Shown here one piece after another: positions 853-20,773 of a stretch of DNA of 64,000 nt. Under the pieces are notes generated by a model, which saw only the letters and a program-made list of their open reading frames with translations, was not told where the DNA came from and searched no databases. The position numbers and the translations under genes are program-made. This DNA is from Deltaproteobacteria bacterium (GTDB lineage: Bacteria; Desulfobacterota; Desulfobaccia; Desulfobaccales; 0-14-0-80-60-11), in assembly GCA_030018495.1 (NCBI GenBank), contig JASEFS010000009.1:1-64000 (forward strand), written 5' to 3'. The first letter of the stretch is position 1. Each line of letters begins with the position of its first letter.

Positions 853-900
853 AAAAAATCGGCCCCGGTCGATAATTCAAGCCGCTCAACCCCGGCCGAT
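853..900 (-). terminator. terminator closing the phage-cassette transcript
   Basis: Read on the minus strand, ATCGGCC (900-894) pairs with GGCCGAT (64-58 of the 800s, i.e. 864-858) across a long loop and is followed by a run of six T. The 5' arm overlaps the last codons of the 93-residue gene. It would stop cassette transcription before hdrA. Confidence 0.55.
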
Positions 901-1167
901 GATTTTAATGACCCGGCCGCCGGACCTTTTGGGGCCATGCTCGTGATGGTGCAGGGCCTCCCAGAGGCTTTGATGCTCCACCCGGTGGGCCGAGAGAAAA
1001 TTTAAATCCAGGTGCCGGTGAGCCCTGCGACAATTGGCGGCGAGTTCGTCCAGCTTCCGATGGATGCCGAGCACCAGCCGCCAGAGGCGATAGGCATAAA
1101 CCCCGGTCAGGAGAGCCAAGGGATAGAGCAGCAGCAGGGCCGCATCCTTGAAAGCTTGCAGGCTCAT
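886..1167 (-). CDS. small membrane-anchored phage protein, paralogue of the gene at 12795-13058
   Basis: A 93-residue protein with an N-terminal hydrophobic segment (about residues 8-32) and then a charged, helical tail. It contains KLDEL, then a C-terminal SLWEALHHHEH and GGRVIK. The 87-residue protein at 12795-13058 has the same plan (KLDEV, SLWSAVNSHSH, DGRVV), so the two are paralogues. The fold resembles small holin-associated or spacer membrane proteins such as XhlA-type proteins, but that is inference. It is the last gene of the cassette and ends inside its terminator. The upstream ribosome binding site is weak. Confidence 0.6.
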   Translation of the reverse strand: MSLQAFKDAALLLLYPLALLTGVYAYRLWRLVLGIHRKLDELAANCRRAHRHLDLNFLSAHRVEHQSLWEALHHHEHGPKRSGGRVIKIIGRG

Positions 1168-1214
1168 GGGTCTTAAACGAATTCAGAGAGAGCACCGTCC
1201 TCAGACTGACACTT

Positions 1215-1249
1215 CAAAACCAAAACTATAAACGGAAAACCAAAAACCG
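1215..1249. repeat. heptamer tandem tract, unit close to AAAACCG
   Basis: Five imperfect heptads (CAAAACC, AAAACTA, TAAACGG, AAAACCA, AAAACCG) fill the gap directly downstream of the 351-residue tail gene. The same unit recurs at 11834, 27934, 31805 and 50781. Confidence 0.75.
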
Positions 1250-1251
1250 CC

Positions 1252-2307
1252 TTATTCCTCCCAGCCCGTAATTTTCACCACCTGATCTTCGGAATTGCCG
1301 TTGTCCAGGAAAAGCTGGTGGTCCTCCGGCGTCTGGCAGCGGAAAGGCAACGCTCCGTGCATTCCCTGAAAGGCCCCGGCCGCAGGCGCGCCGTGCACTA
1401 TTATGGCCGGAGTGCTGCCGTTGTAGGAAATCGCCAATTTGATTTCCGCCCCGTTCGATGCCGCGGCAAACCCTTCCATTACTCTTGCAGTCGGGGGTGC
1501 GGCCAGGGCCGGATCAACGGCCACAAAGCCGGCGAGCGCCCCGGAACTCAGGGTACGGGGGGCGAGGTAGACAAAGTTCTTGCCCTGCTGTCGGAAGGGC
1601 ACCAGGTTGCCCGCGGCATCATTTAAGATCATGCCGATGTAACGAAAATTCGCCTTCGGCAGCACCACGAACCAGTCGCCCTGAGTCAGGCTCAAAGTTC
1701 CGCCGTCATAGGTGATGGTGCCGCCGGCGCCGTTGTCGCTGTTGTTCCCCACAATCCGGCGCACCTCACCTCGCGACGCGCCGGTGAGCACCAGGATTTT
1801 GGCATTGGCCAATTCATCGACGGCAAATCCGTAGCCGATATCCGCGTCATCGGCGTTATTGCGCAAGTAGATGGTTTGGGCATCCTGCGAGGACACCCGC
1901 ATGAGCGGCATGGCCTTGAGGCTGAAGATGGCTTCCGTCGACCCTGCCACGGCATAGACCGCATACCACTGATTGCTCTTTTCCGCGCCCCAGAGGTGGC
2001 CGGGTGTTTCCAGGTCCAGGGTCTCCGGCGCGGCGTTCTCCCGGTAGCGGCCGTCGGACAAGCCGCCGTCAACCCTCGCCTCCCGGTGCAAAGGCGAGGG
2101 AAACCCGTCCAGCATCACTCTGGCCTTACAGTTTGCGGTGGCGTTAACCCGTACCTGGCTCTGGTCCGTATATTCCAGGGAGAGGCCGGCCCCCATGGCG
2201 AAGCTTTCCACCAGGGCCTCTTCAATGGCCGCAAAATCCCGCTTCAAGATAACCTGCCGCCCGGTGCCGCCGCCCCACTTGGTCTGGGGAAGATCAATCA
2301 AAGCCAT
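1252..2307 (-). CDS. distal tail/fibre protein, unknown family
   Basis: A 351-residue protein with a clear AAGGAG ribosome binding site before ATG 2307. It is rich in Gly, Ala, Asn and beta-prone segments and lacks a signal peptide or membrane helix. Its position after the large tail protein suggests a tail fibre, tip or receptor-binding component. The middle (roughly residues 170-240) contains alternating short strands and GG/NG turns typical of fibre repeats. I do not recognise a named domain. The function is inferred from position only. Confidence 0.6.
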   Translation of the reverse strand: MALIDLPQTKWGGGTGRQVILKRDFAAIEEALVESFAMGAGLSLEYTDQSQVRVNATANCKARVMLDGFPSPLHREARVDGGLSDGRYRENAAPETLDLETPGHLWGAEKSNQWYAVYAVAGSTEAIFSLKAMPLMRVSSQDAQTIYLRNNADDADIGYGFAVDELANAKILVLTGASRGEVRRIVGNNSDNGAGGTITYDGGTLSLTQGDWFVVLPKANFRYIGMILNDAAGNLVPFRQQGKNFVYLAPRTLSSGALAGFVAVDPALAAPPTARVMEGFAAASNGAEIKLAISYNGSTPAIIVHGAPAAGAFQGMHGALPFRCQTPEDHQLFLDNGNSEDQVVKITGWEE

Positions 2308-2340
2308 GCCGTTCTCCTTCCGCTTTCCTGTTTTGAAAAA

Positions 2341-2404
2341 GAGCTTATGGCTTAGAGCTTAAAGCCTAAAGCTTATCGCTTTTCGCTGACTGCTGACTGC
2401 TGTT
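2341..2404. repeat. heptamer tandem tract (AGCTTAW/CTGCTGA family)
   Basis: The sequence parses into heptads: GAGCTTA, TGGCTTA, GAGCTTA, AAGCCTA, AAGCTTA, TCGCTTT, TCGCTGA, CTGCTGA, CTGCTGT. It sits exactly between two tail genes. Confidence 0.75.
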
Positions 2405-5400
2405 TTAAAAAGCATACGCCCGAAACTCCCAGTTCTCATCGTAAGCGCTGGCCTGGTCAATGGCGTAAGCCTCGCAATCGCCTGCAGCCGCGTCCACGGC
2501 CCAGGCCCAGGGCCAGAGCGCGGGCCGGGCCAGGTCGAACCGCACCCGCCGCCGTTGAAGGTCTACGGCCTTGCCGAAGACGGTGAATTCCTCCTGCTCC
2601 ATATCGTGAAAATCGGAGGTCGCGGCCAGGATATCCCCCACCTCAGCCCGGGCCCCCTCCAGCCAGGTCTCCAGGTGAGTAGTGTCCCAGGGCGTGGCAA
2701 GCCGCTTGAGGAGCCGCTCGGCCAAAAGCCGGGCGACCTCGGGATTCTCGAGAATCACCGGAGAGCCATAGCGGCAGTCCAAGTCCAGCGCCGCTTCGCC
2801 CCATTCGCTCACCGCGGCTTCGTCCCGGGCTTCGCAGTATTTGCTGTTATCCCGGTCATAGTCGGCAAAAAAGACCCGGACCACATTCTTGCCCTGGGCC
2901 AGTTGATGGGACGATGTCAATGAGCGGATTTGGTTAGCGCCCAGAGGCAGCCTGTGATCGGCCAGCACAAAACCCACCAGCTTGTCAAACCAGGACCAGT
3001 CGCCTCCGGCCTTGCCATGCATCAGGGCCGCGCCGGCCATGAGCACCAGAGCCTCCAGCGACCCCATCTCCCGCATAAAAAGATAATGAGGCGCGTAATC
3101 CCAAAGGTCCTCGTCTTCCAGGAAAGAGAAAGGGATCAAATCGGCGTTGAGCAGGTTGGGCTTGGCGTCCCCGGCATGGGCGAACATCCAAGCCATCAGC
3201 GCCTCGAAGTGGGCTTTGTCCTCCGGGATGCTCGGGAAGCGGTAAGCTTGTCCGGCCAGGCCGAAGGCCGCCACTCCGAAGGCTTGGGCTACCAGGGCGT
3301 TCAGCCAGGCATAGTGATAATCGCTTTTATAGCCGCCGCCGAACTCGGAGCTCTGACGATTCAGACGGAGGTCGTCCAGAATGCGCCGGGCCCAGGTCGC
3401 GGCCCTCTCATCGCCGTTGCGCAGGTGGATAAAAAGGCAGCCCAAAGCTACCGACGCGGCCGCGCCGGGGTCGTAATCCCCGTACTGGAAACCGTATTGC
3501 GAAAACCACAACGGCAGCTTCCAGCCGCTGCCTTCCGGGGCCCCGTAAGCTTCAATCCAGGCGAGCCAGTTGGCCAGGACATCCCAGGCCGCGGCATCGC
3601 CGGTGACAAAGAAATACTGGGCCAGGCGGTAAAAAGCCCAATACTGCGCCAGGCCGGAACCCGCCTCCGGATAGTCGCTGCCGTTTTGCAGACCCCGGGC
3701 AATATCCCAGGCGGATTCGTATTCCGGCCCAGGCAGCACCCGCCGCTCATAGCGGCAATAGTCCAGCGTGAAGACCGCGCTGGTGCCGATGTTGAGATAA
3801 GCATTGTTGTTTAAACCGTCGCCTGCGGCCAGGCTGTCCGCACCCAGGAGCACGCCGTCCTTGACCTTGTAGATTTTGCTTGCGGCCGGGACCACCATCC
3901 AGGTGACCATGTGCCAGGCCCCGTCCAGCACTTCCGGGATGTCGGCATACGAGTCGCCTGCCGTGGTAGTGACCTTCATTTGCAGATCCCGGCTCCCGGC
4001 TCCCTTGGTCTGGATGACCCAGCCGTCGCTCCCCATTTTGTCCACCACCCATTGCCAGCCGGTGGCCGCCGGTCCCTTGATGATCAGAGTCACCGAAAAC
4101 GGCTCGAGGCCCGGCTCGAAAAGCGCATTGCTGGCCAGACTGGCGTGGGCCGTGCCGTCAAAGTCGATGGCCGTAAGGCCGGGCTGACAGACGCCCTCTA
4201 CGAAAACCGGGGTGCCGCCGCTCCACCACAGGTTATGGCCATGGCCCGAAGCATCGGTCAAAGCCCCGTTGAAATGCCAGGCCCCGCTGACTTTGCCGTA
4301 GTCCCGATGGCGGCTCCACCAGCAGAATTTGCCGAAATTCTCCTCCCCGCACAGCGCGATGTTTTCCAGGTCGTTGCGGGTGTGCACCGGCAGGGTGGGC
4401 CCTTTCACGCCGCCGTAGCGCGCCGCGAATTCATCCTGAGCGTCCCGGTGTAGCTGGACATAGGTCTGCGCCAGGTCCGGGGCTCCCGCCAGATGCGGCC
4501 CCAGGGGCTGAGCATAGTGCACCAGGGTCGGCCCCCGCCAGGGGTTTTGCCCGTAAGGGGTCAGGGAAACCGCCAGCCGGGGCACATAGGGATAAGGGTC
4601 CGTGGCAATGAGATTCAACCTCACCTCGTCCAGCCACCATTCATGCTCCCTGAACCCCTGTTGCTCGATTTTGAATTCCAGGAGCCGCAGTTTTTGTGCC
4701 CCGGTAAACCTCACGCGTTCGTCAAATTTAAGATCAGTGAGGTAAAAAGCCCCATTGCTGGGCGGCGAGGCCGGAACGCCGATATCCACTGCCTGAATGG
4801 GATGCGTCAGGGGAGACATCCCCGATTCCAGAGCCATCCCGGCCAGGTCCACGCTCACCCGCTGCCACTCGTTTACCGTGACCTCACGGTCCGCGTAAAA
4901 ATAGCTGCCGTTCGCGTCCTTGACCTTAACCCGCAGGGTAAATGAGCTTAAGCCCGAGACTTCGGGCTTGATAAGGAAATTCACGGCAGTGCGGCCGGTG
5001 GAGTTGCAGCGCGCCGGGTCAATCCCCACCCAGGCCCCGAAGGCTGTGGCATACTGGGACAAATCCCAGGCGATCCGCCTCTGGGTGTAATAAGTGTCCC
5101 CGAAAAGCTCCTCGGACTCTTCCCGGTCGCAGATGGTGAGCCGGCTGTCATCCGGCTGGCTGGCCGAATACCAGGTCCCCCAGGTGGCCCGCACCCGGTC
5201 GCCGTCGTCGATGATATTGTCCCGCCGCCAGAACTGGCTGAAGGGAATCTCCCAGGCCGTGAGTTCGGTGTACCGGTCCGGCAGGGCATGGACATAGGTG
5301 TGGCCCGGCCCCCAGGGATCCGCGTCGCCGGAAGAGGAGTCGTTGAGGCAGACAAGAAGCCGCCGTGGGTGTTCCTCCGGTTCGCCGCCCCAGAAAGTCC

Positions 5401-6532
5401 AGTAATCCCCGGCGACGAAATCGGCTTCAGCTCCCCCTTCCCAATAAACTTCGATGCCGCCCATGAGGGCCACGGGGTGGTCCCGGTCGCCGGTGAGGAG
5501 CCCTTCGGCCTCCCAGGTCAGGCCGCCGTCCTTGGACCACTTGAAGGTGGCCGCGCCCACTTCGCCGCCGGTTTGCGCCATGACCACAAAGCGCCGCTTT
5601 TCCTTATGCCCGTAATCCCCGGCGAACAGAAGCTGGGCGCCGCCGCTTCCATACTTGGTGAGGTTGTGCAGACGGCTGCTGTGGCCGGCCCCCATGAGTT
5701 TGAGGCTGACCCGGTCAATGTCGCTGAAGGGGCTCTGCGTGAAGGACCAGTCCAGGCCGTAGCCGAACCAGGCCCCGTCGGCCAGGGTGGGCAGCTCCGC
5801 CCTGACGTGCAGCAGCCGCTCCCTGGAGCCTTCGGCCAGCTCCGTCTGGAAAATCGGCAGGCCCTCCGCCCCCCGGGTTGAGTCCTGGTAAAGCAGGAAA
5901 GTGCCCCGCTCCCAAAGCTGACGTTCAAAGGAATCATACACCAAAGGCGGGGTAAGGCTGTGCTGCCGCTCCACCAGGGCCTGCCAGAGAAAGCGCCGAG
6001 CCGGGCCGTAGTCCAGACCCCGCTCCTTTTCGGCCAGATGGAGATACACCATCAAATCCAGCAGCCGGTCCACCGCAAAGTCGTAAGTGTAATCATCCCG
6101 GCCGCGGCAGGCCCGGCGGATGCAGGGGTAGTTGTTCAGGGCTTCATACTTGGCGGCTCGCTCACCGGTAAAATAGATGTAAAAAAGTTGCACTTCCGTG
6201 CCGGGCGCCAGCGGCGTTCCCAGGGTGATAACGGTGGCCGAGCCCTCGTTGACGAAGGAACCCCCCTCATAATAGTTGGTCACATCGCCGTCGATGGCCG
6301 CGGCCCAAAAGCCGTCCCAGGCGAAGAGGGTGTCCTTGAGCCACACCCCCCGGAGGAAATGCACCCGGCCGCCTCCCGGATTCGGCTCCTGGATGACCAC
6401 GCTGCCGTCAGCCGCAACGCTGGCGGTGGCCCCGCCGGCCTTTCCCGCCGCGGCCTCCTGGAAGGGCGTGCCGCCCATGTTGTCATACGCCCAGTTGAAC
6501 TGACTGCCCCGGGCCCATCGGATACGCGACAT
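2405..6532 (-). CDS. very large tail protein with LamG-like and alpha-helical toroid-like regions
   Basis: A 1375-residue protein, by far the largest in the cassette, preceded by GGGGGTGAAG. The N-terminal third is beta-rich. Around residues 325-400 it carries a module shared with the 529-residue tail protein (GEVGAATFKWSKDGG, then VYWEGGAEADFVAGD). Around 770-940 lies a LamG/concanavalin-like sandwich (DFDGTAHASL, DGAWHMVTW). Residues about 940-1200 are a Trp/Tyr-rich helical region reminiscent of an alpha/alpha toroid, as in six-hairpin glycosidases. This would suit a tail-tip protein that binds or trims surface polysaccharide (inference). In gene transfer agents and siphoviruses the last large gene is a host-recognition or hub protein. 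Confidence 0.7.
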   Translation of the reverse strand: MSRIRWARGSQFNWAYDNMGGTPFQEAAAGKAGGATASVAADGSVVIQEPNPGGGRVHFLRGVWLKDTLFAWDGFWAAAIDGDVTNYYEGGSFVNEGSATVITLGTPLAPGTEVQLFYIYFTGERAAKYEALNNYPCIRRACRGRDDYTYDFAVDRLLDLMVYLHLAEKERGLDYGPARRFLWQALVERQHSLTPPLVYDSFERQLWERGTFLLYQDSTRGAEGLPIFQTELAEGSRERLLHVRAELPTLADGAWFGYGLDWSFTQSPFSDIDRVSLKLMGAGHSSRLHNLTKYGSGGAQLLFAGDYGHKEKRRFVVMAQTGGEVGAATFKWSKDGGLTWEAEGLLTGDRDHPVALMGGIEVYWEGGAEADFVAGDYWTFWGGEPEEHPRRLLVCLNDSSSGDADPWGPGHTYVHALPDRYTELTAWEIPFSQFWRRDNIIDDGDRVRATWGTWYSASQPDDSRLTICDREESEELFGDTYYTQRRIAWDLSQYATAFGAWVGIDPARCNSTGRTAVNFLIKPEVSGLSSFTLRVKVKDANGSYFYADREVTVNEWQRVSVDLAGMALESGMSPLTHPIQAVDIGVPASPPSNGAFYLTDLKFDERVRFTGAQKLRLLEFKIEQQGFREHEWWLDEVRLNLIATDPYPYVPRLAVSLTPYGQNPWRGPTLVHYAQPLGPHLAGAPDLAQTYVQLHRDAQDEFAARYGGVKGPTLPVHTRNDLENIALCGEENFGKFCWWSRHRDYGKVSGAWHFNGALTDASGHGHNLWWSGGTPVFVEGVCQPGLTAIDFDGTAHASLASNALFEPGLEPFSVTLIIKGPAATGWQWVVDKMGSDGWVIQTKGAGSRDLQMKVTTTAGDSYADIPEVLDGAWHMVTWMVVPAASKIYKVKDGVLLGADSLAAGDGLNNNAYLNIGTSAVFTLDYCRYERRVLPGPEYESAWDIARGLQNGSDYPEAGSGLAQYWAFYRLAQYFFVTGDAAAWDVLANWLAWIEAYGAPEGSGWKLPLWFSQYGFQYGDYDPGAAASVALGCLFIHLRNGDERAATWARRILDDLRLNRQSSEFGGGYKSDYHYAWLNALVAQAFGVAAFGLAGQAYRFPSIPEDKAHFEALMAWMFAHAGDAKPNLLNADLIPFSFLEDEDLWDYAPHYLFMREMGSLEALVLMAGAALMHGKAGGDWSWFDKLVGFVLADHRLPLGANQIRSLTSSHQLAQGKNVVRVFFADYDRDNSKYCEARDEAAVSEWGEAALDLDCRYGSPVILENPEVARLLAERLLKRLATPWDTTHLETWLEGARAEVGDILAATSDFHDMEQEEFTVFGKAVDLQRRRVRFDLARPALWPWAWAVDAAAGDCEAYAIDQASAYDENWEFRAYAF

Positions 6533-6600
6533 TCACTTCACCCCCACAGAGCCTTCGCTTCCCACCTGCTGCCTGCCAATCAGTCGTAGCCTTTATCCTG

Positions 6601-6663
6601 AGGCCTAACGCCTGACCCCTTACCCCTTACCCCTGACCCCTGGCCACTGGCCACCGGCCACTA
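6601..6663. repeat. heptamer tandem tract (ACCCCTT/GCCACTG family)
   Basis: Reads as heptads AGGCCTA, ACGCCTG, ACCCCTT twice, ACCCCTG twice, GCCACTG, GCCACCG, GCCACTA. It fills the gap between the 529- and 1375-residue tail genes. Confidence 0.75.
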
Positions 6664-6664
6664 A

Positions 6665-8254
6665 CTAATCTTCCCCCAAATACGCCCTGATCTTGATCTC
6701 GCCGAAATCCACCCAGAGATCGTAAAGCGTGCGCCTGACAACCTCCCGAATAGCCTGGGCCGCAGTAATATTTTCAAAACATGCGCCCACGGCGTAGTCC
6801 GGAGTCAGGCTTTTGGCCAAGGAGAAGCTGTCCGCGTTCATGACTTCCTCCAGCCCGACTTCCGCCAGGATGTCGCTGATGATATCCACCGGGTGAGTGG
6901 TGGCGTCTTTCACCACCCGGGCTTCCACCATGGCGCTTTGGCCGGTGACCAGGATTTCGCCGGTCGCCGCGTCAGCAGCCACGCCTTCCCAGGTTTCCTC
7001 GCCGTTCAGTAAGACCGAAGCAATCCTGGTGAACGGCCCGCCGAATACCTTATAATGGTAGACCGGCGCTGTTGCTTGGAACCGGAAGCAGTCTCCGGCC
7101 TCAAAATCAACGCCGATGCCCGATTCCCAAAAAACCGCCAAACCCTCTGACAACTCCACCGGGTCTTCGGCTCCCGCGGTTGCGATGCCGGTTTCCCGCC
7201 AACTCTGGCCCAGGTTGGTGGACCACCGGAAGGCGGCCTCTCCCACCTCTCCGCTGGTTTCAACCTCGAGGAGGTAAGTTTGGTCTCTTTGCCCTGTATA
7301 AGTCCCCAGCACCTGCAAGGCGGCGCTGCCGCTGCCGGTCTTCACCGGCGCGCCCACCTGGGCCGGCGTGGTGTGCACCAGCTCGCCCCTGGCCAGATAC
7401 ATCCCCCGCATAAACGGCTGTCTGTCCCCGCCGGCGCCGGGCGCGCCTATGCGCTTTTGCAGGCAGTGGGCGATCCTGTCCCGGCTTTGCAGGCTGACGC
7501 GGTGTTTCTCCCGCCAGCCGTGGGCCATGCCTTCCAGGCGCTCCACCACGCCCCGGTATAGCAGGAGCCAGTCCGTGGTGCCGTCAGGAAGTTCCCAGCC
7601 ATGGAAGAGGTCCAGCCGTTTTTGTTCGCAAGGCAGGCCCAGGAAGGGGAAATTTGTGGACTTGGGCAGCCACTGGCCGTCCCGGTTGTCCAGCACCAAA
7701 GTGTGATCCCCCACCCGGTGCTCGCTGAAATTTCGGGCCAAAGATACCCGCACTTCCCCCGCGTCGATGATCTCGCTTTCCGGGATGGTGAGCCTGCCCT
7801 CCAGGCGCAGGCCCGAAATGTAGCCGGAAGGCTCACCGGACCAGGTGGAGTCGGTGAATTCAACTTTTACCTGATAAAATGCACCAAGGTCCGCATCCTT
7901 TCCCTGGGCCAATTGCTGGAAAGGCGCAGCCCCGAGCTCCGCCTCATTAGCGGCGCTCCGAAGGTACACCTGACATTTCATATAAGGGATATGGTTCTCC
8001 CAGTAAACCGCCACCCCGGTCAGGAACGGACTGAAGGCTTGCCTGACCGGCGAGGTCCAGGCGGCATACTCCAGGTATCCGGCCGCCAGAGCAATCTTGC
8101 CGGGTTCGCCGCCGAATACCGTGTTTTCAAAGACCCCCAATCCCGGGCCCAGGCCGTAATCAAGGTCAAAAGGGTAAATAATCGCCTTGACCCGGGGCCT
8201 GCCGCCCCGGAGGCGGGCTTCTTCCTGAATAAACTGCGGGGATGCCTGTCGCAT
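6665..8254 (-). CDS. tail hub/baseplate-like protein
   Basis: A 529-residue soluble, mostly beta-strand protein. Residues about 160-270 (VLDNRDGQWLP, YRGVVERLEG, VSLQSRDR) resemble the hub/distal-tail domains of long-tailed phages. Residues 330-395 hold the module shared with the 1375-residue protein (GEVGEAAFRWS, VFWESGIGVDFEAGD). The C-terminal 130 residues have the DIISDILAEVGL and QAIREVVRRTLYD helices often seen in tail hub proteins. Its place after the tape measure supports a hub or baseplate role. No lysozyme or peptidase motif was recognised. The ribosome binding site (GCAGAAG) is modest. Confidence 0.65.
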   Translation of the reverse strand: MRQASPQFIQEEARLRGGRPRVKAIIYPFDLDYGLGPGLGVFENTVFGGEPGKIALAAGYLEYAAWTSPVRQAFSPFLTGVAVYWENHIPYMKCQVYLRSAANEAELGAAPFQQLAQGKDADLGAFYQVKVEFTDSTWSGEPSGYISGLRLEGRLTIPESEIIDAGEVRVSLARNFSEHRVGDHTLVLDNRDGQWLPKSTNFPFLGLPCEQKRLDLFHGWELPDGTTDWLLLYRGVVERLEGMAHGWREKHRVSLQSRDRIAHCLQKRIGAPGAGGDRQPFMRGMYLARGELVHTTPAQVGAPVKTGSGSAALQVLGTYTGQRDQTYLLEVETSGEVGEAAFRWSTNLGQSWRETGIATAGAEDPVELSEGLAVFWESGIGVDFEAGDCFRFQATAPVYHYKVFGGPFTRIASVLLNGEETWEGVAADAATGEILVTGQSAMVEARVVKDATTHPVDIISDILAEVGLEEVMNADSFSLAKSLTPDYAVGACFENITAAQAIREVVRRTLYDLWVDFGEIKIRAYLGED

Positions 8255-8313
8255 GATTATCTTCTGCAGCCGCAGGCTTTAGCCTGGGCAGCTTCTGACT
8301 AAACCGCCAAACC

Positions 8314-8352
8314 CTTCAAACTTTGAACCTTGAACCTTGAACCTTGAACTTT
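8314..8352. repeat. heptamer tandem tract, unit CCTTGAA
   Basis: CTTCAAA, CTTTGAA, CCTTGAA three times and CTTTTCA in register, ending at the stop codon of the next gene. Confidence 0.8.
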
Positions 8353-8718: not shown

Positions 8719-8727
8719 ATCGCCTCC

Positions 8728-9468: not shown

Positions 9469-9499
9469 AGCTCAATTTCTCTCTCAAGGAATAGGCCCG

Positions 9500-11878: not shown

Positions 11879-11879
11879 T

Positions 11880-12320: not shown

Positions 12321-12335
12321 GATTTCAGAGCCTTA

Positions 12336-12758: not shown

Positions 12759-12794
12759 ATTTCCGTCACTCCTGACCGCCTTTGCCTTTTCCCA

Positions 12795-13058: not shown

Positions 13059-13065
13059 GCTTCGA

Positions 13066-13227: not shown

Positions 13228-13298
13228 GAAACACCCTCAAATTTTCGTCGTTAGTCCTGGCCGGAGATGGTATTCACCCCCGGCCAGGTGTTGAAAGA

Positions 13299-13640
13299 TC
13301 AATAGAAGTAAGTCACCTGCAAGACGCCGTCGGTCTCTCCCAGCTTGATGGCCCGAAATTGATTGATAGCCTGCGTGCCGATCAGCATCACGGAGTCGCC
13401 GTTGGCGAGAATATGCCCGTGGGTTAAGGTCGGGGGGCCGATATTGTCGATGCGGAACCGGATGTCGCCTCCTTCGTTCGTTACCAGCACCGCCTGGGCG
13501 TACATGCCCTCAAAGGTCCCCCAGGTTGGCAGAATTTTGCCGCGGGCAAAATATGCAATGTTGCTTGTGACCGTGAGAATTTCGTGGTTTCCCGGAACCT
13601 TGTCCGAAGATTCCAGGACATAGCCTCCGAACCAAGACAT
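13299..13640 (-). CDS. phage structural protein of unknown family
   Basis: A 113-residue beta-rich protein with an AAGGAG ribosome binding site 7 bases before ATG 13640. Segments NIAYFARGKIL, AQAVLVTNEGGDIRFRIDN and GDSVMLIGTQAINQFRAIK suggest a small beta-sandwich such as a capsid spike, cement or neck protein. It follows the major capsid gene by 30 bases. I cannot name the family. Confidence 0.6.
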   Translation of the reverse strand: MSWFGGYVLESSDKVPGNHEILTVTSNIAYFARGKILPTWGTFEGMYAQAVLVTNEGGDIRFRIDNIGPPTLTHGHILANGDSVMLIGTQAINQFRAIKLGETDGVLQVTYFY

Positions 13641-13670
13641 GGCCGCTCCTTATTCTCCTGGCCCCTTGAT

Positions 13671-14567
13671 TTAAGCCAATTCCGGCACTACCAGGAGGTC
13701 CGCCGATCCCTGCCAGATATTGGACTTGGAGCCCCCTGTGTCGGGATTGCCGATAATGAATTGCGCGTTAAGTATTTCCCGGGCCTTGGATTCCAATGCC
13801 GGCGGCACCATCAGCAGGTTCGGCCTGATCCCCAAAGGCGCGCCCTCAGCATTGGTAAACGACATCATAGCCGTCCGGGCCGCGGCATAATTGGAGGCGT
13901 TCAGCTCCTGGGTGGAACAGTAGGCCAATTGCCACAAGCCGTAAGCTGCGGCGCCCCGGTAATCCACCCCGTACCGGAATTTTTTGCGCATGAACACATG
14001 TTCGTCGTCCGGCCGGTCCATGCGCACCAACTGCACCCCCCGCCGCAATTGGAAGATAAACGGCTTGATGGCCCGGGAGGTGTCCAACAAGTACCACGCG
14101 GTTTCGATGCCCGGATTGTAATTGGCCTCTACTCCAGACCCTACCGGGTGTGAGGTGTCAAAAAAGTTTTTGCCGTCATAACAAATCGTAGACGCGCCGG
14201 CCTTCAGCAGTGAGGCGATCAGCTTCTCCGGGTGCTTCTTGGCCTCCTGGGCCATGGCCGCCACGATAGGATTGTAGAGCCCGAGCTGCTCGTCCTCGAT
14301 GTCGTTGCGTTCGATTTCAATGGTGGCTTCCCAGTCCTTGGTCTCGATTTGGTAGGCCTTGGGCTCCAGGGCGTTCACCTGCCGGTCCCCGATCCATTCC
14401 CGCACCATGGGGAAATCAAGCAGGAATTTGTAGTCCATGATGCGGGTCTTGGCCGGCACCGTCATCGCCGCTCGCTCATGCCAGGTTTCCGTATCCTGGA
14501 AAGCGTTGTTGAATACGGCGGTGAAGGCCGTGTATACCTGCGCTAATGATTCTGCATTTATAATCAT
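13671..14567 (-). CDS. Mu gpT-like major capsid protein
   Basis: A 298-residue protein that follows the Mu gpT head-subunit pattern throughout: an N-terminal SLAQVYTAFTAVFNNAFQ, WIGDRQVNAL, YQIETKDWEATIEIERNDIEDE, LIASLLKAG, CYDGKNFFDTSHP and LMVPPALESKAREIL. The gene has a GGGGGG ribosome binding site. It follows protease and decoration genes as in Mu. The HK97 fold is expected from the family. There is no N-terminal scaffold region; maturation would use the gpI-like protease/scaffold upstream. Confidence 0.9.
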   Translation of the reverse strand: MIINAESLAQVYTAFTAVFNNAFQDTETWHERAAMTVPAKTRIMDYKFLLDFPMVREWIGDRQVNALEPKAYQIETKDWEATIEIERNDIEDEQLGLYNPIVAAMAQEAKKHPEKLIASLLKAGASTICYDGKNFFDTSHPVGSGVEANYNPGIETAWYLLDTSRAIKPFIFQLRRGVQLVRMDRPDDEHVFMRKKFRYGVDYRGAAAYGLWQLAYCSTQELNASNYAAARTAMMSFTNAEGAPLGIRPNLLMVPPALESKAREILNAQFIIGNPDTGGSKSNIWQGSADLLVVPELA

Positions 14568-14581
14568 TTACTTTTCCCCCC

Positions 14582-14989
14582 TTATCTGCTGATATCGATC
14601 CAGCCCTTGGTATCGGTGACATATTTCACCAGCACGCCGGCTTTGATATTGTTGGTGGTCCCGGCCGCGTCGTCAAAGGTGTTGTCGTCTTTGAGATACA
14701 TGGGGGCGCCCACCATGGCCTGGGTGATGCTCGCCGCGTTGAACTCAAAGACGCCCGTCCGCCTGAGGCGCACCACTTTGGCGCCGTTGGCTCCGCCGGT
14801 GTTGTCCACCTGCTCCAGCGCCACTCCCAGAAATTTCAATCCCGCGGTGTCCGCCGCCGGCACCGCAAAGCCTTCAGCATTCGCGCCTACCAGACTGCCG
14901 GCATAGATCTTGGTGGCCCCCGCCACCGGGAATTCAATCTCAATCCCTTCCCGATAGGGTGTGGCCCTGTCTTGGGTTAATGCTGCCAT
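14582..14989 (-). CDS. capsid decoration protein (DUF2190-like)
   Basis: A 135-residue protein with an AGGAGGAG ribosome binding site. It shows the small beta-sandwich pattern of head decoration proteins (KIYAGSLVGANAEGF, LKFLGVALEQVD, RRTGVFEFNAASIT, AGVLVKYVTDTKGWID). The gene overlaps the end of the protease gene by 13 bases and precedes the capsid gene by 14, typical of a protease-decoration-capsid module. It would trimerise on the capsid surface and stabilise the expanded head. Confidence 0.75.
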   Translation of the reverse strand: MAALTQDRATPYREGIEIEFPVAGATKIYAGSLVGANAEGFAVPAADTAGLKFLGVALEQVDNTGGANGAKVVRLRRTGVFEFNAASITQAMVGAPMYLKDDNTFDDAAGTTNNIKAGVLVKYVTDTKGWIDISR

Positions 14990-16005
14990 GATTCTCCTCC
15001 TCCGGAATTATTTGACTGACCGATCTGCAACTTCGCCTTCAAATACTCAGCCGGGGCGATGTTCACCGCCCGGCATATCGCCTTCTCTGCCGCACTTATG
15101 CGGTGAGGCTCTTCCGGCCCGTCCTGGGCCAACGCCAAAACTTCTCCCACCGGCACCACCTTGGGAGCCTGCTCTGCGAAAGCCCGAAAACTTTCGAGGT
15201 CCCGCCGGCAATACTCCATGGCCCAGGTTTGCTGAGCCGGACTGATTTTGCCGGACCTCAGGGCCTCTTCCACGGCCCGCGTGGCCTGCTCTTCGGCCAG
15301 TCGGGCCTTGAGAGACTGAATTTCCAGGGCGAGTTCCTCAACTTGGGCAGCCCGGGCTTTCAGGGACAAAAGACTTTCCTTGAGCTGGTCCGAAGTAGCC
15401 TCTGCCGTCAGTTCCAAAGCTCCGGAGACCTCCTGCAAGAACTCCTGGGTCTTGCTCCATAAGGACTCCCCAGTCGCCTCACGCGGCAGCCCCAGCCTGA
15501 GCTTGAGGTCTTCCAGTACCCCTTCATTATCCGCTGGCATCGAGCTCTCATCTTGGGCCGCAGCCCCGCCGAATTTCGCCACCAGGGGCGTAACCTGCTT
15601 CATGGCCGGCACGTTGGTCAGGGCCGCATTAAGCAGCGCCAGAGGCTGGCGGGTTTCCGGGTCCAGCTTGAGCACCGGCGAAAAATAGCGGTACTCTTTC
15701 TGGCGCAGATATTCCCCCGCCTGGGCCGTCCACTCCACCCTGGCCCACAGACCGTCTTCCCGGGCGGCCAGCTCCTTGATCCAGCCCGCGGCCGGCGCCC
15801 TCCCGCCGTTGAGGGATTGGTGCTCATAATCCACCACCAGGTCCACTCCCCGGGACTGGAACGCTTCCACTATGGCTGCCAAAGATTCTTTATCCACTCG
15901 GAAGGGCGGTCTGCCGTCCACCAGGTCCACCTGCCCCAGCGGCAAAAGGCGTATCCACTCAGGCAGGTCCGTCGCTTCCAACACCAATTTCAGTTTCCTT
16001 TCCAT
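14977..16005 (-). CDS. Mu gpI-like head maturation protease/scaffold
   Basis: The family start is ATG 16005 (MERKLKLVLE), supported by AGGAAGG upstream; the frame itself is open further upstream but without family similarity. The 342-residue protein has the phage-I protease domain at about 1-150 (GVDLVVDYEHQSLNGG, AAGWIKELAAREDGLWARVEWT, YRYFSPVLKLDP, LLNAALTNVPAM). A helical, Glu-rich C-terminal half follows (about 165-330) that fits the built-in scaffold. In Mu, gpI is the serine protease and its C-terminal Z form is the scaffold. It overlaps the decoration gene by 13 bases. Confidence 0.88.
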   Translation of the reverse strand: MERKLKLVLEATDLPEWIRLLPLGQVDLVDGRPPFRVDKESLAAIVEAFQSRGVDLVVDYEHQSLNGGRAPAAGWIKELAAREDGLWARVEWTAQAGEYLRQKEYRYFSPVLKLDPETRQPLALLNAALTNVPAMKQVTPLVAKFGGAAAQDESSMPADNEGVLEDLKLRLGLPREATGESLWSKTQEFLQEVSGALELTAEATSDQLKESLLSLKARAAQVEELALEIQSLKARLAEEQATRAVEEALRSGKISPAQQTWAMEYCRRDLESFRAFAEQAPKVVPVGEVLALAQDGPEEPHRISAAEKAICRAVNIAPAEYLKAKLQIGQSNNSGGGESWQH

Positions 16006-16025
16006 GAATCCTTCCTGTTTGCTCC

Positions 16026-16418
16026 TCAAGGAATCGCCTGAGGGTTTTCCGTTTGCGGCCCGGACACCTGCACCCCGGCCTGTTGAGCCAGTTTCTGCGC
16101 CTCTTCCGCCTGCAGTTCCACCTGCTTCACGGCCTCCGCCGGCGGGCACCACTGGGCCTGAAGTTCGCCGGCCAACAGCAGCGTACTGTCCGCCGCCACC
16201 ACCGCCTGCCGCACCTTTTCGTTGGCCAGGTCTTCAGTCAGCAGCGGATCGTAGTAGCCCTGCACGGTCTTCAATGAATGCTCCAGCTTGTTGAAGACCC
16301 CCGGATTCGAACAGCACCCTGCCAGGAGCCCGGCCACAGCCAAGGCCGCAGCCCACCTCCCCCTCGGCGCCCTTCGCGCCTTTGCCTGAGACCTTTTTTC
16401 ACCTTTATTTTTCCTCAA
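16026..16418 (-). CDS. phage-cassette lipoprotein with TTG start
   Basis: The best start is TTG 16418, with GAGGAGGGG 6 bases upstream, overlapping the portal gene by 14 bases; it gives about 130 residues. A very basic leader (KARRAPRGR) precedes a hydrophobic stretch (WAAALAVAGLLAGC) ending in a lipobox at the CC pair. The mature part is a helical, Ala/Glu/Gln-rich domain (KQVELQAEEAQKLAQQAG). A lipoprotein between portal and protease is unusual; this slot is often filled by a MuF head protein. Part of the leader coding sequence is a near-copy of a dispersed intergenic repeat (16372-16390). The function is unknown. Confidence 0.6.
   Translation of the reverse strand: MRKNKGEKRSQAKARRAPRGRWAAALAVAGLLAGCCSNPGVFNKLEHSLKTVQGYYDPLLTEDLANEKVRQAVVAADSTLLLAGELQAQWCPPAEAVKQVELQAEEAQKLAQQAGVQVSGPQTENPQAIP
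16372..16390 (+). repeat. CTTTGCG-type element copy inside a coding leader
   Basis: CTTCGCGCCTTTGCCTGAG matches the consensus core CTTTGCGCCTTTGCGTGAG at 17 of 19 positions. It encodes, on the minus strand, the basic leader of the lipoprotein. Confidence 0.55.
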
Positions 16419-17679
16419 ACCGTTCCCCTCCTCGTTCTCCGGATATGATCTGTTCCCCCTCCTGCGGCAAAGGCACCCCGAAGCGCTCGGCCACATGCTC
16501 CAGGCTCAGGGGCAGCCCCAAGGCCGCCAAATTGCGGTACACCTCGGACAGCGTCTTCAAGTCTTCCTCTTCCTCGTACCGGAAACGGAACCAGGGCGCG
16601 GGCTTGTCCCAACCGAAGTTGAAGCCCGTGAGCGGCCGCAGCAACTGCTCCCGCAGTGTCTGGGCCAGGGCTTGGGCGTCGGCCTCCACCAGGTCCCGGC
16701 GCACCTGGGCGTGCACCCGCGCCGCGGCATAAGTGCCGGTCGTTCCCGTGGTATCCGTCGTTAGCGTCTGGCCCAAAACGGCCTTGGACATCTCCCGGTT
16801 GCAGAATTCCGCCAGCACCTGATAAGGATTGGCGTTGCCCGAAAGTCGGGAGGTGGCCTCCACAAACTCGATCTCCGTGTTCTTGCTGATCACCCCGGCG
16901 GCGTCCGAACCAAGGCTGCGGATCGCCTGGACAAGGGCTTCCCGGTCTGCGGGCGAGGCCATGGGGTCGTACTTCCCCAGCCTGAGCGGCATGCCGAATA
17001 CTTCGTTGAAGGCCGCCCAATCTTTCAAAGCGTAATTTTTGAGGAGGTACATGTAGCCCACTACCCGGAGCACCCCCGCCCGGGTGTCATAGCCGCTGCG
17101 GGCCTTATAGCGGTGGTAGATCACCTTCCAGGAGGGAAAATCCTCCCCCTGCCAGGGCTTCTCTATGGTCAGCAGCCGGGGGTGCAAACTCTCCGAGAAG
17201 GTCACCTTTTTTTGAGGAATCCATCTGAGTTCGCTGACCCGGGCCTGACTCCCTTCTATCCCCCAAATAATCTCCGCCAGCGCGAACCCTTTGCCTATGG
17301 CGTCAAGCAAATCCAGGAAGGCGCCCTCTATATTGGGGATGCGGTACACCATTTCGCCCACCGCCGCCGCGATGCGCTCATCCTCCGGCGTCTTGGCATA
17401 GGGCATCACCTCGTAGTCCAGACTGAGCACCGCCAACTTGCGGGTTTGCAGGAGCGACGCCAGATGCGCATCTTTTTCCTCCATCTCCTCGAACAGTTCC
17501 ATCTGGCGCTGCACTATGCCCTGATCCGCCTCCTGGAAAATGGCCGACAGTCTGCCCGGCGTCAGCCCCACGCTGGGATAGGTGGTCCAGCGCGCCGGCA
17601 CGCTTACCGCCGACAATTCCCGCATCTCCGGTTTGACCTCCGGCTTGAACAACTTCCCGAAATAGTCCCGTAAACCCAT
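16405..17679 (-). CDS. portal protein, DUF935 (Mu gp29-like)
   Basis: A 424-residue protein with the DUF935 signature: MELFEEMEEKDAHLASLLQTRKLAVLSLDYEV near residues 60-95, GKGFALAEIIW, a WIPQKKV strand, YLLKNYALKDWAAFNEVFGMPLRLGKYD, and an EFCNREMSKAVLGQTLTTD core. The family length is 420-520, so it is essentially complete. Portals form the dodecameric DNA gate at one head vertex and dock the terminase. It lies 172 bases downstream of terL across a spacer containing a degenerate hairpin repeat. No MuF-like partner follows. Confidence 0.9.
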   Translation of the reverse strand: MGLRDYFGKLFKPEVKPEMRELSAVSVPARWTTYPSVGLTPGRLSAIFQEADQGIVQRQMELFEEMEEKDAHLASLLQTRKLAVLSLDYEVMPYAKTPEDERIAAAVGEMVYRIPNIEGAFLDLLDAIGKGFALAEIIWGIEGSQARVSELRWIPQKKVTFSESLHPRLLTIEKPWQGEDFPSWKVIYHRYKARSGYDTRAGVLRVVGYMYLLKNYALKDWAAFNEVFGMPLRLGKYDPMASPADREALVQAIRSLGSDAAGVISKNTEIEFVEATSRLSGNANPYQVLAEFCNREMSKAVLGQTLTTDTTGTTGTYAAARVHAQVRRDLVEADAQALAQTLREQLLRPLTGFNFGWDKPAPWFRFRYEEEEDLKTLSEVYRNLAALGLPLSLEHVAERFGVPLPQEGEQIISGERGGERFEEK

Positions 17680-17769
17680 GGATTCTCCCGACCAACTCTT
17701 TATGCGCCAAATTGAAGGGTTAGATTTTCGACGTTTCTTTTAAACTTTGCTTTCAAAGCTTTCCTTAAA

Positions 17770-17806
17770 CTCCTCTCCCCTTGAGGGATGGGCCGGGGTG
17801 TGGGGG
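17770..17806. repeat. degenerate copy of the CCTCTCCCC hairpin repeat
   Basis: CTCCTCTCCCC-TTGAGGGAT-GGGCCGGGGTGTGGGGG corresponds to the right-hand part of the element at 10352. It lies in the terL-portal spacer. Confidence 0.5.
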
Positions 17807-17851
17807 CAAATCATATGACCTTGACTCCGGCTCTGGCCCCCGGCCCCTGCC

Positions 17852-19381
17852 TCAAAAAGCTCCCCGCCCCGCAAAAACCCTGGATTTAATGGGCACATAA
17901 TCCGATTCCCGGGCCCCCGGCACATACTTTTGCGCCAATCGCACCGCCCCTTCCAGGGCGTCCGGGCCGTCGTCATGGAGCGTCCGTGAGGGGAAATAGA
18001 GGAGCTGCTCCACCAGGAGTTCCTGGTCTGAATGCCCCCGGATAAACCGGATTCTGCCCCGCTCCAACAGCGGGGCCAAACCCGCCACGCGGGTTTCTTT
18101 GGCCAGCCGCTGGGTGACGCCCTTCACCGGCAGGAGCATTCCCAGCTCCTTGCCGAGCACGTCGAACTCCTTGAGCAGCAGCCGTTGGAATAAATTGTCC
18201 TCCACCCCGAAGATGAAATAAGGCCTCTCCTTGTGGCGGTTGAAGATGGCCCTTAAGGTCTGCTCCAAGGTGGTTTTTTGGATGAACGCGTCCAGCACGT
18301 AAAACACCAGTTCCTGGGGAGCCCACCCCAGCGTTATCACCGCCTTGTAGTCCGCGCTGCCCCCGCTTTCCAGGGACGGATCGAAAAACCCCACACAAAC
18401 CAGGTCCTTGTCCTTCAAGCTGCCGGGATGGTAATAATGGATCCAATTCTCATCAAACAGGCCGCCCTCAGGCGCCGGTTCATTCATCTTCTCCCGGTTG
18501 AAGGCCGCCGAGCCCATGAGCTGTTTTTGCTGCTTGAGCTTGGCGGCCGGATGGCGCGCCTCCCATAGGGAGGAGCCGTCTTCATTCAGCGCCCGGTAAA
18601 GGCGCCTCTGAAAATGGCAGTAAGGTTCTTCCTTGCTGGTCAGCATCAGGTGCAGCGCGCTGCGCTGGCGCAAAATCGTGCCGATCACCATGAGCGTCCC
18701 CTGGGCTTCAATGGCCGGGTAAACCGCGGACTGCACCCAATCCAGAATCTGCTTGACAATTTCCGGGTTGCGCACGTTGACGTCATTTTCCAGGTCGTCC
18801 AGAATGACCAGATCGGGGCGCCATTGTTTGTGCTTGAGCCCCCTGAGGCGCTGGCCCCGCCCCCTGGCCTTCACCCGAACGTCGTTTTTGGTGACGAAAT
18901 CATTCACCGCTTTGTTGGGCCTCACCAACTCCCCGAAATCCTGGTGCAGGCGCTCGTTATAGAGCAGCTCCAAATAGATGTAGCCCGTCAGGTCGCTGGC
19001 CAGGTCTTCCGTGTCGCTGCCGATGATGATGAAATGCCGCCGGCCGAAACAGATCTGATGCAATACATAGCCGAACGAGCACACTGTGCTCTTGGCGAAC
19101 TCCCGGGGGGCCGCGGCCGCGATGGGCGTCAATACCGGCCCCCGGCTGTCAAGAAGCTGTACGAGTTCATAGTGAAACGGGGCCGGCGCCTGGGAAAAAT
19201 AGTGAGGCAGGTAAGTGCGGCAGAAATAAAGAGGGTCAGCCGCAGCCCTTTGTAAGCGAGCCTCCCGCCGCTCCTGGCTGTCTTCCCAAAACGGTGAGAC
19301 CTCTAAAGACAGACGCATCAGGATCTCATCCGCACGCTGGCGAAACTCGCGCCTGGTCAGCTTTTTCTTTAAATTCAGCAT
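17852..19381 (-). CDS. terminase large subunit
   Basis: A 509-residue packaging motor. The ATPase half shows a Walker A-like APREFAKST at residues 91-99, Walker B LVILDDLEND at 191-200 and a coupling-type MVIGTIL at about 231-237. The nuclease half starts with VGFFDPSLE (catalytic Asp near 334). It contains FGVEDN and ends with the Mu/SPP1-like HDDGPDALEGAV near 470-482. All key acidic residues are present, so packaging competence is plausible. It follows terS by 18 bases. The relationship to Mu-type (gp28-like) terminases is inferred from the neighbours. Confidence 0.9.
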   Translation of the reverse strand: MLNLKKKLTRREFRQRADEILMRLSLEVSPFWEDSQERREARLQRAAADPLYFCRTYLPHYFSQAPAPFHYELVQLLDSRGPVLTPIAAAAPREFAKSTVCSFGYVLHQICFGRRHFIIIGSDTEDLASDLTGYIYLELLYNERLHQDFGELVRPNKAVNDFVTKNDVRVKARGRGQRLRGLKHKQWRPDLVILDDLENDVNVRNPEIVKQILDWVQSAVYPAIEAQGTLMVIGTILRQRSALHLMLTSKEEPYCHFQRRLYRALNEDGSSLWEARHPAAKLKQQKQLMGSAAFNREKMNEPAPEGGLFDENWIHYYHPGSLKDKDLVCVGFFDPSLESGGSADYKAVITLGWAPQELVFYVLDAFIQKTTLEQTLRAIFNRHKERPYFIFGVEDNLFQRLLLKEFDVLGKELGMLLPVKGVTQRLAKETRVAGLAPLLERGRIRFIRGHSDQELLVEQLLYFPSRTLHDDGPDALEGAVRLAQKYVPGARESDYVPIKSRVFAGRGAF

Positions 19382-19399
19382 GGCTTGGGCCTTAACCTC

Positions 19400-19879
19400 T
19401 TAGTCCTGATCCTCTTCGTCCTCCAACTTGCGGAAAAACTCCTGCATCCAACTGGAAAAGCGCTTGATCTCTTCCCGATCCTTAACCCAGCCCCGCAAGA
19501 ATTCGCTGAACCGCTCCATAACTTCCAGGGCCGCCGAGCGGATGTCCCAACTATGGGAGCAAACTCGCTCAATCAACGTAATGAGCTTGGTCAACTCATC
19601 CAACTCCGGCGGTGTCAAATCTCCTTTGGCCAACAGCCGGCCCGTTTTCTCCCTCAGAATGCCTTTGAGGGCCTTTCCCAACCAGCGGGGCGAGACCAGC
19701 GCCTGGCGGCGTTTCTCTTCCCACTGCCCCTCTTTGTGCCAGCGCAGGAGGGTTTGCCGGGAAACCGGATAGATCTCCTGTAGTTCCCTCAGTTCTCTGC
19801 CTGCCAGATACAATGATTGCGCTTCCGCGTAGTACAGATCGCGTTTCCCTTGCCGCCCCGAAGGTTTTTTTGATGCCAT
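19400..19879 (-). CDS. terminase small subunit, DUF1804-like
   Basis: A 159-residue protein with an N-terminal helix-turn-helix (YYAEAQSLYLAGRELRELQEIYPVSRQTLLRWHKEG) at about residues 16-52. A helical oligomerisation region follows (LTPPELDELTKLITLIERV) and an acidic tail (LEDEEDQD). The arrangement matches Mu-like terminase small subunits, which bind the packaging initiation site and feed DNA to the large subunit. It is the first structural gene of the minus-strand transcript, 68 bases after a small HTH gene. Confidence 0.8.
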   Translation of the reverse strand: MASKKPSGRQGKRDLYYAEAQSLYLAGRELRELQEIYPVSRQTLLRWHKEGQWEEKRRQALVSPRWLGKALKGILREKTGRLLAKGDLTPPELDELTKLITLIERVCSHSWDIRSAALEVMERFSEFLRGWVKDREEIKRFSSWMQEFFRKLEDEEDQD

Positions 19880-19947
19880 AATGTGGCCAATTACTTATGC
19901 AAAAACCCTGAAACTCTCCAGCACACCTGGAACAACTGGCAGGTTCT

Positions 19948-20133
19948 TTATTCAAAACCGAAATCCGCTTCGGAAAGCTGCAAGTTCACCGAGCTTTCCA
20001 AGATTCTCACCGGGCCCCCCAAAAGCTTGATGCCCCGGAGCTTGCCCTCCCAGAACCACCGGTACACCGATGAACGCGAGATTCCCAACCGGTTCGCCAC
20101 CTCCCGGGGCCTCAGCAGCCTCTCTTTTTGCAT
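19948..20133 (-). CDS. Xis/AlpA-like helix-turn-helix protein (minus-strand member of a divergent pair)
   Basis: ATG 20133 is preferred because GGGGGAAG lies just upstream; it gives 61 residues. The HTH_17-type motif LLRPREVANRLGISRSSVYRWFWEGKLRG is followed by GGPVRI, where a beta wing of excisionase folds sits. It aligns along its length with the plus-strand gene at 20585 (RPxEVA, SRxxVYR, GPxRI). Such proteins act as excisionases or as AlpA-type transcription activators. Being the first gene of the cassette transcript, it is a good candidate for its regulator. Confidence 0.75.
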   Translation of the reverse strand: MQKERLLRPREVANRLGISRSSVYRWFWEGKLRGIKLLGGPVRILESSVNLQLSEADFGFE

Positions 20134-20419
20134 TAGCTTCCCCCCTTTGGCTTTTTTCCCCTTCCATTCAAAAACCATGGCAGCCGCTGAGACAAAAGGC
20201 TGCTCTTGTCGCAAAAGGCAAAACCAGGCTTTTGAAACCAGGGAGCAAAAAAGATAACTTATAGGAATAACTATTAAAAAAGATATTGATGGTGGGGAGC
20301 GCGCCGCCTTGGGGGAGGGTTGAAAGATCCTCTTGCCATCTCCACTTGATAAGCCGGCGGAGATTTTTTTTGAGTTTCCCTAGATTTTTTTTAAATTTTT
20401 TTTGCTTTTTAGGGAATTC

Positions 20420-20436
20420 CCCTATATTTTATAGGG
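20420..20436. promoter_or_regulatory. candidate operator, 7-bp perfect inverted repeat
   Basis: CCCTATA and TATAGGG are separated by three T. It overlaps the adjacent GGGAATTCCC palindrome by two bases and lies just upstream of the plus-strand promoter. Confidence 0.55.
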
Positions 20437-20442
20437 AAATTA

Positions 20443-20472
20443 TTGGACAGCACTAAGGGATTTTCCTATAAT
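20443..20472 (+). promoter_or_regulatory. sigma70-type promoter for the plus-strand HTH gene
   Basis: TTGGAC (20443-20448) and a perfect TATAAT (20467-20472) are 18 bases apart; TGGACA with 17-base spacing is the alternative. The start codon lies about 105 bases downstream of the expected transcription start. Confidence 0.6.
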
Positions 20473-20584
20473 GCACTAAGATATTACCTGAAATGCTTGT
20501 CCGCCAAAGGCTCACTCTTTGCACTAGCACTATTATGGTGGCCCAAATCAGCCAACCAGATCAGTAGAACCAAGGAGGGAGACA

Positions 20585-20773
20585 ATGGAGCTGATCATGA
20601 AGAAGCGGTTTTTTCGTCCTGATGAAGTGGCCGATATCCTTAGCCTTTCTCGTCGCACGGTTTACCGCATGATTCGTGATGGTCGCCTGCCCGGAGTGCG
20701 ATTGGGTTCCGGCCCCTGGCGCATCTCCCGGGAAAGTATCCAGAACCTGCTGCCCCAACGCTGGCAAGCGTGA
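20585..20773 (+). CDS. Xis/AlpA-like helix-turn-helix protein (plus-strand member of the pair)
   Basis: A 62-residue protein with AAGGAGGGA 5 bases before ATG 20585. The motif FFRPDEVADILSLSRRTVYRMIRDGRLPG followed by GPWRISRESIQNLL is a complete HTH_17/excisionase domain. It is a paralogue of the minus-strand protein at 19948-20133. A strong hairpin follows its stop, so it is probably monocistronic. It may regulate the cassette by binding the shared spacer. An excisionase role is less likely because no integrase is present. Confidence 0.8.
   Translation: MELIMKKRFFRPDEVADILSLSRRTVYRMIRDGRLPGVRLGSGPWRISRESIQNLLPQRWQA

Follow-up and report, generated by a model that had tools for sequence, protein, structure and literature searches.

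Gene transfer agents (GTAs) are formally defined (PMC9662315) by six features: particle proteins derived from tailed phages, full endogenization, mostly vertical inheritance or co-diversification, packaging of mostly random host DNA, a GTA genome that is packaged incompletely or not at all owing to the limited head size, and DNA delivery. About five genetically distinct types have been listed (PMC11409702). The small terminase (TerS) of described GTAs reportedly has no detectable DNA-binding domain (PMC11841831), a trait that lies outside the formal definition. From the sulfate reducer Desulfovibrio desulfuricans, once classified with the Deltaproteobacteria, the GTA Dd1 has been reported (PMC11409702, PMC11841831). 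For the order Desulfobaccales, a search of open-access full texts yielded no description of a GTA. Here, we analyzed a window of 64,000 nt (positions 1 to 64,000 of contig JASEFS010000009.1, assembly GCA_030018495.1) from a Desulfobaccales genome of 3.46 Mb in 63 contigs. The window contains a cassette of phage particle genes with a Mu-type head, which an earlier note, made from the sequence of the window, had proposed to be a GTA-like or domesticated element. A shared locus, vertical inheritance, purifying selection and the lack of mobility genes support this proposal, and we consider it likely that the cassette is an inherited phage-particle factory that is kept as a host gene cluster and acts as a GTA.

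Distribution and inheritance of the particle cassette

The cassette occupies 19.3 kb of the minus strand (886-20214), and in the list of open reading frames (ORFs) its genes form one unbroken run. All structural and packaging components of a tailed particle are encoded in it, and genes for self-mobility or replication are lacking. Its occurrence was analyzed in 29 genomes of the order (G000 to G028, with G000 being the window genome), which fall into eleven genera (g1 to g11) and two families (f1 and f2). A cassette that was at least partial was present in 27 of the 29 sequenced species, covering the 11 genera and both families, a figure that includes genomes with tail-end pieces only; the exceptions were G007 and G009. 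The capsid gene was detected in 27 of the 29 genomes when prophage copies were counted, and 22 genomes from ten genera each had a single copy of the tail tube gene. Outside the order, the portal was found at E 1e-60 in only 7 of 285 genomes of the phylum (33-56% identity), which is the pattern that scattered phages would give.

In 14 genomes from eight genera (G000, G001, G002, G005, G008, G010, G012, G013, G014, G020, G022, G024, G026 and G027; genera g1, g2, g4, g5, g7, g8, g10 and g11), ftsH is the neighbor at the start of the cassette, and both the divergent helix-turn-helix (HTH) gene pair and the gene order are the same. In G006, G011, G021 and G023 it is located elsewhere or the link to ftsH was not seen, and in the remaining genomes a contig ends in between. 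The downstream neighbor differs, being hdrA in g1 and g3, amino-acid transporters in g7, and uvrB/dnaJ in g8. Of the setting between hdrA and ftsH that had been described for the window, the ftsH flank (21800-23689, plus strand) is conserved, and the hdrA side has other occupants in g7 and g8. In the window itself, only the 5'-part of hdrA is visible (1-537, minus strand, recognized by its translation), because contig C63 begins at window base 1 and cuts the gene.

The same hdrA gene borders deletion scars in the two genomes without a cassette. In G007 and G009, the site between the ftsH-receiver-HTHb genes and hdrA contained only remnants of the tail-tip gene g1375 together with a protein similar to the small membrane protein TM93, and in G009 also a piece of the regulatory gene HTHa. 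In the rpoB tree, the scar genome G009 is the sister of the cassette-bearing G008. As the two scars also differ from one another, two losses are probable, and the scars show that the presence of the cassette is ancestral and its absence derived. Patchy presence and direct-repeat attachment sites, both named in the earlier note as signs against its proposal, were not observed: within the order the absences are deletion scars, and the flanks contained only repeats at chance level.

The phylogeny of the cassette closely follows that of its hosts. When ten cassette proteins were concatenated, the resulting tree had 17 of 18 splits in common with a tree of rpoB, a gene at a different genomic location (both calculated with FastTree). 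Cassette and rpoB distances were correlated with a Mantel r of 0.82, a value reached in 0 of 5000 permutations. G007 is absent from the cassette tree and was removed from the single-gene comparison, in which individual cassette genes had about 44-88% of their splits in common with rpoB, while label shuffling yielded a maximum of 2-3 splits. A similar range was obtained for the host proteins FtsH, FolP, CdaA and YbbR. Pairwise ratios of nonsynonymous to synonymous substitutions (dN/dS) within genera ranged from about 0.05 to 0.33 in almost all genes of the cassette and were 0.05-0.19 for the capsid and the large terminase (TerL); the few higher values belonged to short or poorly delimited ORFs. 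The dS values of the cassette resembled those of flanking host genes. Together, these results show that the cassette is inherited vertically and is under purifying selection, so that the comparisons suggested in the earlier note (the same locus in relatives, vertical inheritance and dN/dS) all turned out as it had anticipated. We conclude with high confidence that the cassette is a domesticated particle.

Gene content, regulation and lysis genes

Along the minus strand (20214 to 886), the cassette begins with HTHa (19948-20214), a regulator of the excisionase/AlpA type (PF12728, 3.7e-11). The packaging genes follow, with TerS (19400-19879; phrog_4151, DNA-binding protein, 3e-11), which has an N-terminal HTH-like region that is conserved in the alignment, and TerL (17852-19381; phrog_38, 3e-89). 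The key terminase residues had been reported as present, and the catalytic motifs of TerL are indeed intact (Walker A R93..K97, Walker B ILDD, nuclease D334/D395/D474), its ATPase and nuclease residues being invariant in 15 orthologues; in the g10 member G022, the glutamate beside D395 is lost. The head genes comprise the Mu gp29-type portal (16405-17679; PF06074, Portal_Mu, 1.2e-105), a small lipoprotein-like ORF that is conserved downstream of the portal (16026-16496, with the true start probably at about 16412), the Mu I-type maturation protease/scaffold (14977-16152; PF10123, Mu-like_Pro, 5.2e-78), a cement or decoration protein (14582-14989; phrog_1731, 1.7e-38) and the Mu gpT-type major capsid protein (13671-14567; PF10124, Mu-like_gpT, 1e-107). 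Behind the capsid gene are g113 (13299-13640), a variable small protein, and the small membrane protein TM87 (12795-13058), followed by the gp36-like head-tail connector (12336-12758; PF07030, Phage_Mu_Gp36, 1.2e-27; phrog_195) and the gp37-like neck or tail completion protein (11880-12320; PF08873, Phage_Mu_Gp37, 5e-14). Portal, protease and capsid are Mu-type by both Pfam and PHROGs, and gp36 and gp37 are likewise Mu-like, which bears out the Mu-type head of the original description as well as its complete packaging-head-tail gene order. The slot between the capsid gene and gp36, which contains only g113 and TM87 in the window, is variable in other genera (L047/L048, L051, L056 and L140-L141) and harbors genes for fibre-, spike- or adhesin-like proteins that reach 975 amino acids (aa) and are possibly head fibres or receptor-binding proteins.

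The tail genes start with the tube (10481-11776; phrog_290). Its AlphaFold model (pLDDT 81) had the best fold match to the tail tube of P74-26 (8ed0, E 1.5e-10) and matched also T5 pb6, which identifies the protein as a siphophage-type tail tube. No sheath gene was recognized and therefore the tail is taken as non-contractile, as judged from gene content. Next are two putative tail chaperones, g127 (9829-10212; by position, 58-83% identity) and the conserved g112 (9500-9838; by position and its overlap with g127), and the tape measure protein (8728-9468), which was assigned by weak PHROG tape-measure matches, by alignment, and by a tblastn match to the 1007-aa tape measure of prophage L076. 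The distal part comprises g121 (8353-8718), by position a distal tail adaptor-like protein, Hub529 (6665-8254), a hub or baseplate protein of a family that is conserved across the order, and the large tail-tip protein g1375 (2405-6532), with a LamG/ConA-like lectin domain, a GH48-like region and a weak C-terminal Phage-tail_3 match. The last genes are g351 (1252-2307), a conserved 351-aa tail- or fibre-side protein with identical length and 51-60% identity order-wide, and TM93 (886-1167). For the hub, structure prediction did not yield a usable model (pLDDT 38), so that position and conservation are the only basis of its name. Profile searches against solved structures gave no match for hub, tube and g351 and only chance-level matches for g121, and no relative of the tube, hub or tip was present in 50,697 phage records.

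A very short tape measure, given in the earlier note as a trait of GTAs, is confirmed here: the protein has 246 aa in the window and 246-280 aa in all cassettes that encode it. In uncultivated phages that share the tube, the large ORF at the respective position is mostly about 580-2603 aa long (assigned by position; split or short in L229). The prophage L076 of G012, which has related g121, hub, g1375 and g351 proteins, contains the tape measure of 1007 aa. Compared with these relatives, the cassette tape measure is truncated 2- to 10-fold. Judged from its length, the tail in f1 is predicted to measure about 35-40 nm.

One genus deviates from this layout. In all four g10 genomes the tube is missing, and in two of them gp37 and g121 form one ORF (L141 of G022, 899-1687; L145 of G023, 1-651), a fusion that accompanies the loss of the tube, the chaperones and the tape measure. 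Most of the other cassette genes remain intact in this genus. In G022, which is probably Desulfobacca acetoxidans, the hub and g1375 are open, and g1375 is also open in G025, which retains hub, g1375, g351 and TM87. The two g1375 proteins have 1392-1399 aa and a mutual identity of 48%, and intactness at this divergence argues against neutral decay. The hub was not found in G023 and G024, and some g10 cassettes may therefore be decaying. D. acetoxidans has been listed as poly-lysogenic, without mention of GTAs (PMC8146710).

HTHb (20585-20773, plus strand; TIGR01764, 3.7e-13) is a divergent excisionase-type regulator that is retained in the scar genomes. A sigma-54-like -24/-12 site (AGGCTCACTCTTTGCA, 20508-20523, plus strand) is located 61 nt before it and reads into the gene. 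Such a site was found in 16 of 20 genomes, in both families and at a broadly similar distance to the gene. By base shuffling, an individual site is only modestly improbable (p 0.00-0.10); the argument for a promoter rests on the place and orientation that are common across genera. The CheY-like receiver gene between HTHb and ftsH (21028-21570, plus strand), a neighbor on the host side of the cassette, was ruled out as a candidate for the sigma-54 activator, as it encodes a CheY-like protein with TPRs (TPR-extended in g7 and g4) and not an NtrC-type protein. It is also kept in genomes without the cassette.

Between ftsH and hdrA, no ORF for an integrase, transposase, replication protein, MuF or endolysin was found, and MuA/MuB-type transposition genes were absent from the cassette ORFs; in a MuA search of the whole G000 genome, the control was silent. 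The GC content of the cassette showed no strong anomaly, and an Rfam search of the window gave no match. The earlier claim that such genes are absent thus holds for the window, but cassette ends in g2 do carry a lysis gene: in three species, a TIGR02594 protein, taken to be an endolysin, follows g351 and TM87. Similarly, the structural gene inventory was correct, but the two divergent HTH genes and the receiver also lie between the flanks. In g7, a holin-like ORF of 53-57 aa is found at the cassette end, with a weak PHROG match only. The membrane proteins TM93 and TM87 are paralogues by tblastn, one encoded at the cassette end and the other behind the capsid gene, where TM87 has a putative holin- or spanin-like position. 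Both possibly have a role in lysis.

Gene transfer or another use of the particle

Several features of the formal GTA definition can be read from the genes. The portal, protease, capsid, gp36, gp37 and TerL by their Pfam or PHROG matches, and the tube by its fold match, are tailed-phage-derived. The fixed place beside ftsH in 14 genomes, together with the lack of mobility genes and attachment repeats, indicates full endogenization, and the rpoB splits and gene trees indicate vertical co-diversification, with the head genes at the f1/f2 split as the exception. We have moderate confidence that the cassette works like a GTA, and it is probably a GTA-type viriform that is independent of the known GTAs and hitherto undescribed. 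According to this model, the particle genes of a Mu-headed siphophage would have been captured by an ancestor of the Desulfobaccales and retained beside ftsH. In some cells, a sigma-54-dependent signal would switch on HTHb, which together with HTHa would turn on the leftward operon. Chromosomal DNA would be packaged into Mu-type heads by the terminase, and the heads would receive a short, non-contractile tail with the lectin-bearing protein at its tip. The cells would then lyse and the particles hand DNA to kin. A more specific version is put forward only tentatively, namely that the cassette represents an independent, order-ancestral and sigma-54-gated GTA lineage with stepwise tail reduction, at first to a tape measure of about 250 aa and then to a tube-less transfer particle in g10. 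In that version, the gp37-g121 fusion would place hub and tip directly on the head in the Desulfobacca-type genus.

A number of observations weigh against a function as a GTA. The particle, the packaged DNA and the transfer are predictions from the genes. Phages with related capsids have genomes of 36-40 kb, and the entire 19-kb cassette could therefore fit into a head of unchanged size. An endolysin is not visible in the window lineage. The reduced-carbon amino-acid signature that has been reported for RcGTA was not detected in the tube (2.85 versus 2.76 side-chain carbons per residue, a comparison that is confounded by GC content). In capsid trees, the f2 capsids (g10 and g11) were placed among phages and prophages and not with f1, which indicates an exchange of head genes with phages close to the f1/f2 split; in the tube and portal trees, f1 and g11 grouped together with a support of 1.00. 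Lastly, the TerS of the cassette keeps its HTH and in this respect is unlike that of described GTAs. For this reason, and because packaging and delivery are predicted, we do not claim GTA membership.

Vertical inheritance and purifying selection leave the function unspecified, and a domesticated particle might be kept for a purpose other than transfer, e.g., for killing competitors or for delivering specific cargo. The glycan-binding tip with its lectin and GH48-like regions, the fibre-like genes that differ between genera and the HTH of TerS would be in line with such a use. However, the terminase, portal, cement and capsid are strongly constrained and the TerL nuclease is intact, although a head-less killer needs none of them, and no dedicated cargo gene is conserved order-wide, so that we regard this explanation as unlikely.

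An ordinary prophage was rejected on the basis of the rpoB congruence, the deletion scars and the selection data. The same congruence throughout the order and the fixed chromosomal place, as well as scars instead of clean empty sites and ORFs that remained intact over deep divergence (g1375 in G022 and G025, 48% identity), largely refute also a long-resident prophage that is self-serving or slowly decaying and has its mobility genes elsewhere or lost them recently. Such an origin would fit the two excisionase-type HTH genes at the border, the related Mu-like prophages in the same family (with the 1007-aa tape measure of L076), the exchange of f2 head genes with phages and the tube loss in g10. 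The capsid exchange at deep nodes, and resident prophages that have hub, tip and g351 proteins in common with the cassette, could also point to a reservoir in the chromosome with which superinfecting Mu-like phages recombine and which persists because they borrow its genes or because it interferes with them. This is highly improbable, as it would leave unexplained that all particle genes are conserved in step with the host phylogeny, that the tape measure is uniformly truncated, and that the promoter site is conserved. If the cassette is indeed a GTA, it would represent another independent GTA origin, Mu-headed and order-wide, in anaerobic sulfate reducers. The intact, scar-lost and tube-less versions in related species would then be natural replicates for studying why a costly device is retained.

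Comparison with phages and described gene transfer agents

Mu-headed siphophages (JBD25, RC1, FP_Mushu and relatives in IMG/VR) possess a homologous head module, with about 40-45% identity of the capsid. Uncultivated viral contigs have the tube in common with the cassette, mostly at 42-56% identity, and two of them also the hub (44%). Where checked, free Mu-headed relatives have tape measures of about 580-2600 aa and some appear to carry a MuF-like gene, whereas the cassette has neither. Second, divergent copies of the Mu-like capsid with 54-68% identity were found at unrelated places (G000:C12 9415-10305, L070; G008:C12 40404-41288; G009:C15; G012:C3, L076; G013:C238; G017:C264; G021:C91) and represent resident prophages related to the cassette. 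One contig catalogued as a virus (L195, IMGVR_UViG_3300026945_000001) encodes a tube that is 74% identical to that of the cassette. In the tube tree, L195 falls within the cassette group, which shows that viral databases include domesticated cassettes and that pieces of them can be catalogued as viruses.

The likeness to RcGTA and the Rhodogtaviriformidae includes an endogenous, vertically inherited cluster without mobility genes and with repeated loss in lineages, the order of packaging, head, neck, tube, chaperone, tape measure, hub and large tip genes, the short tape measure, and a lysis gene outside of the core cluster. In contrast to RcGTA, the cassette encodes a portal, protease and capsid of the Mu type, and its TerS keeps an HTH. 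Among solved structures, its tube, hub and tip have no sequence match to RcGTA, although their folds may be distantly similar. Instead of the described RcGTA regulators, the cassette has a sigma-54-like promoter and an excisionase-type HTH pair. Dd1, which was compared by description only, is similar in being a GTA reported in a sulfate reducer. It belongs to another lineage, and its TerS reportedly has no DNA-binding domain (PMC11841831), whereas the TerS of the cassette carries an HTH.

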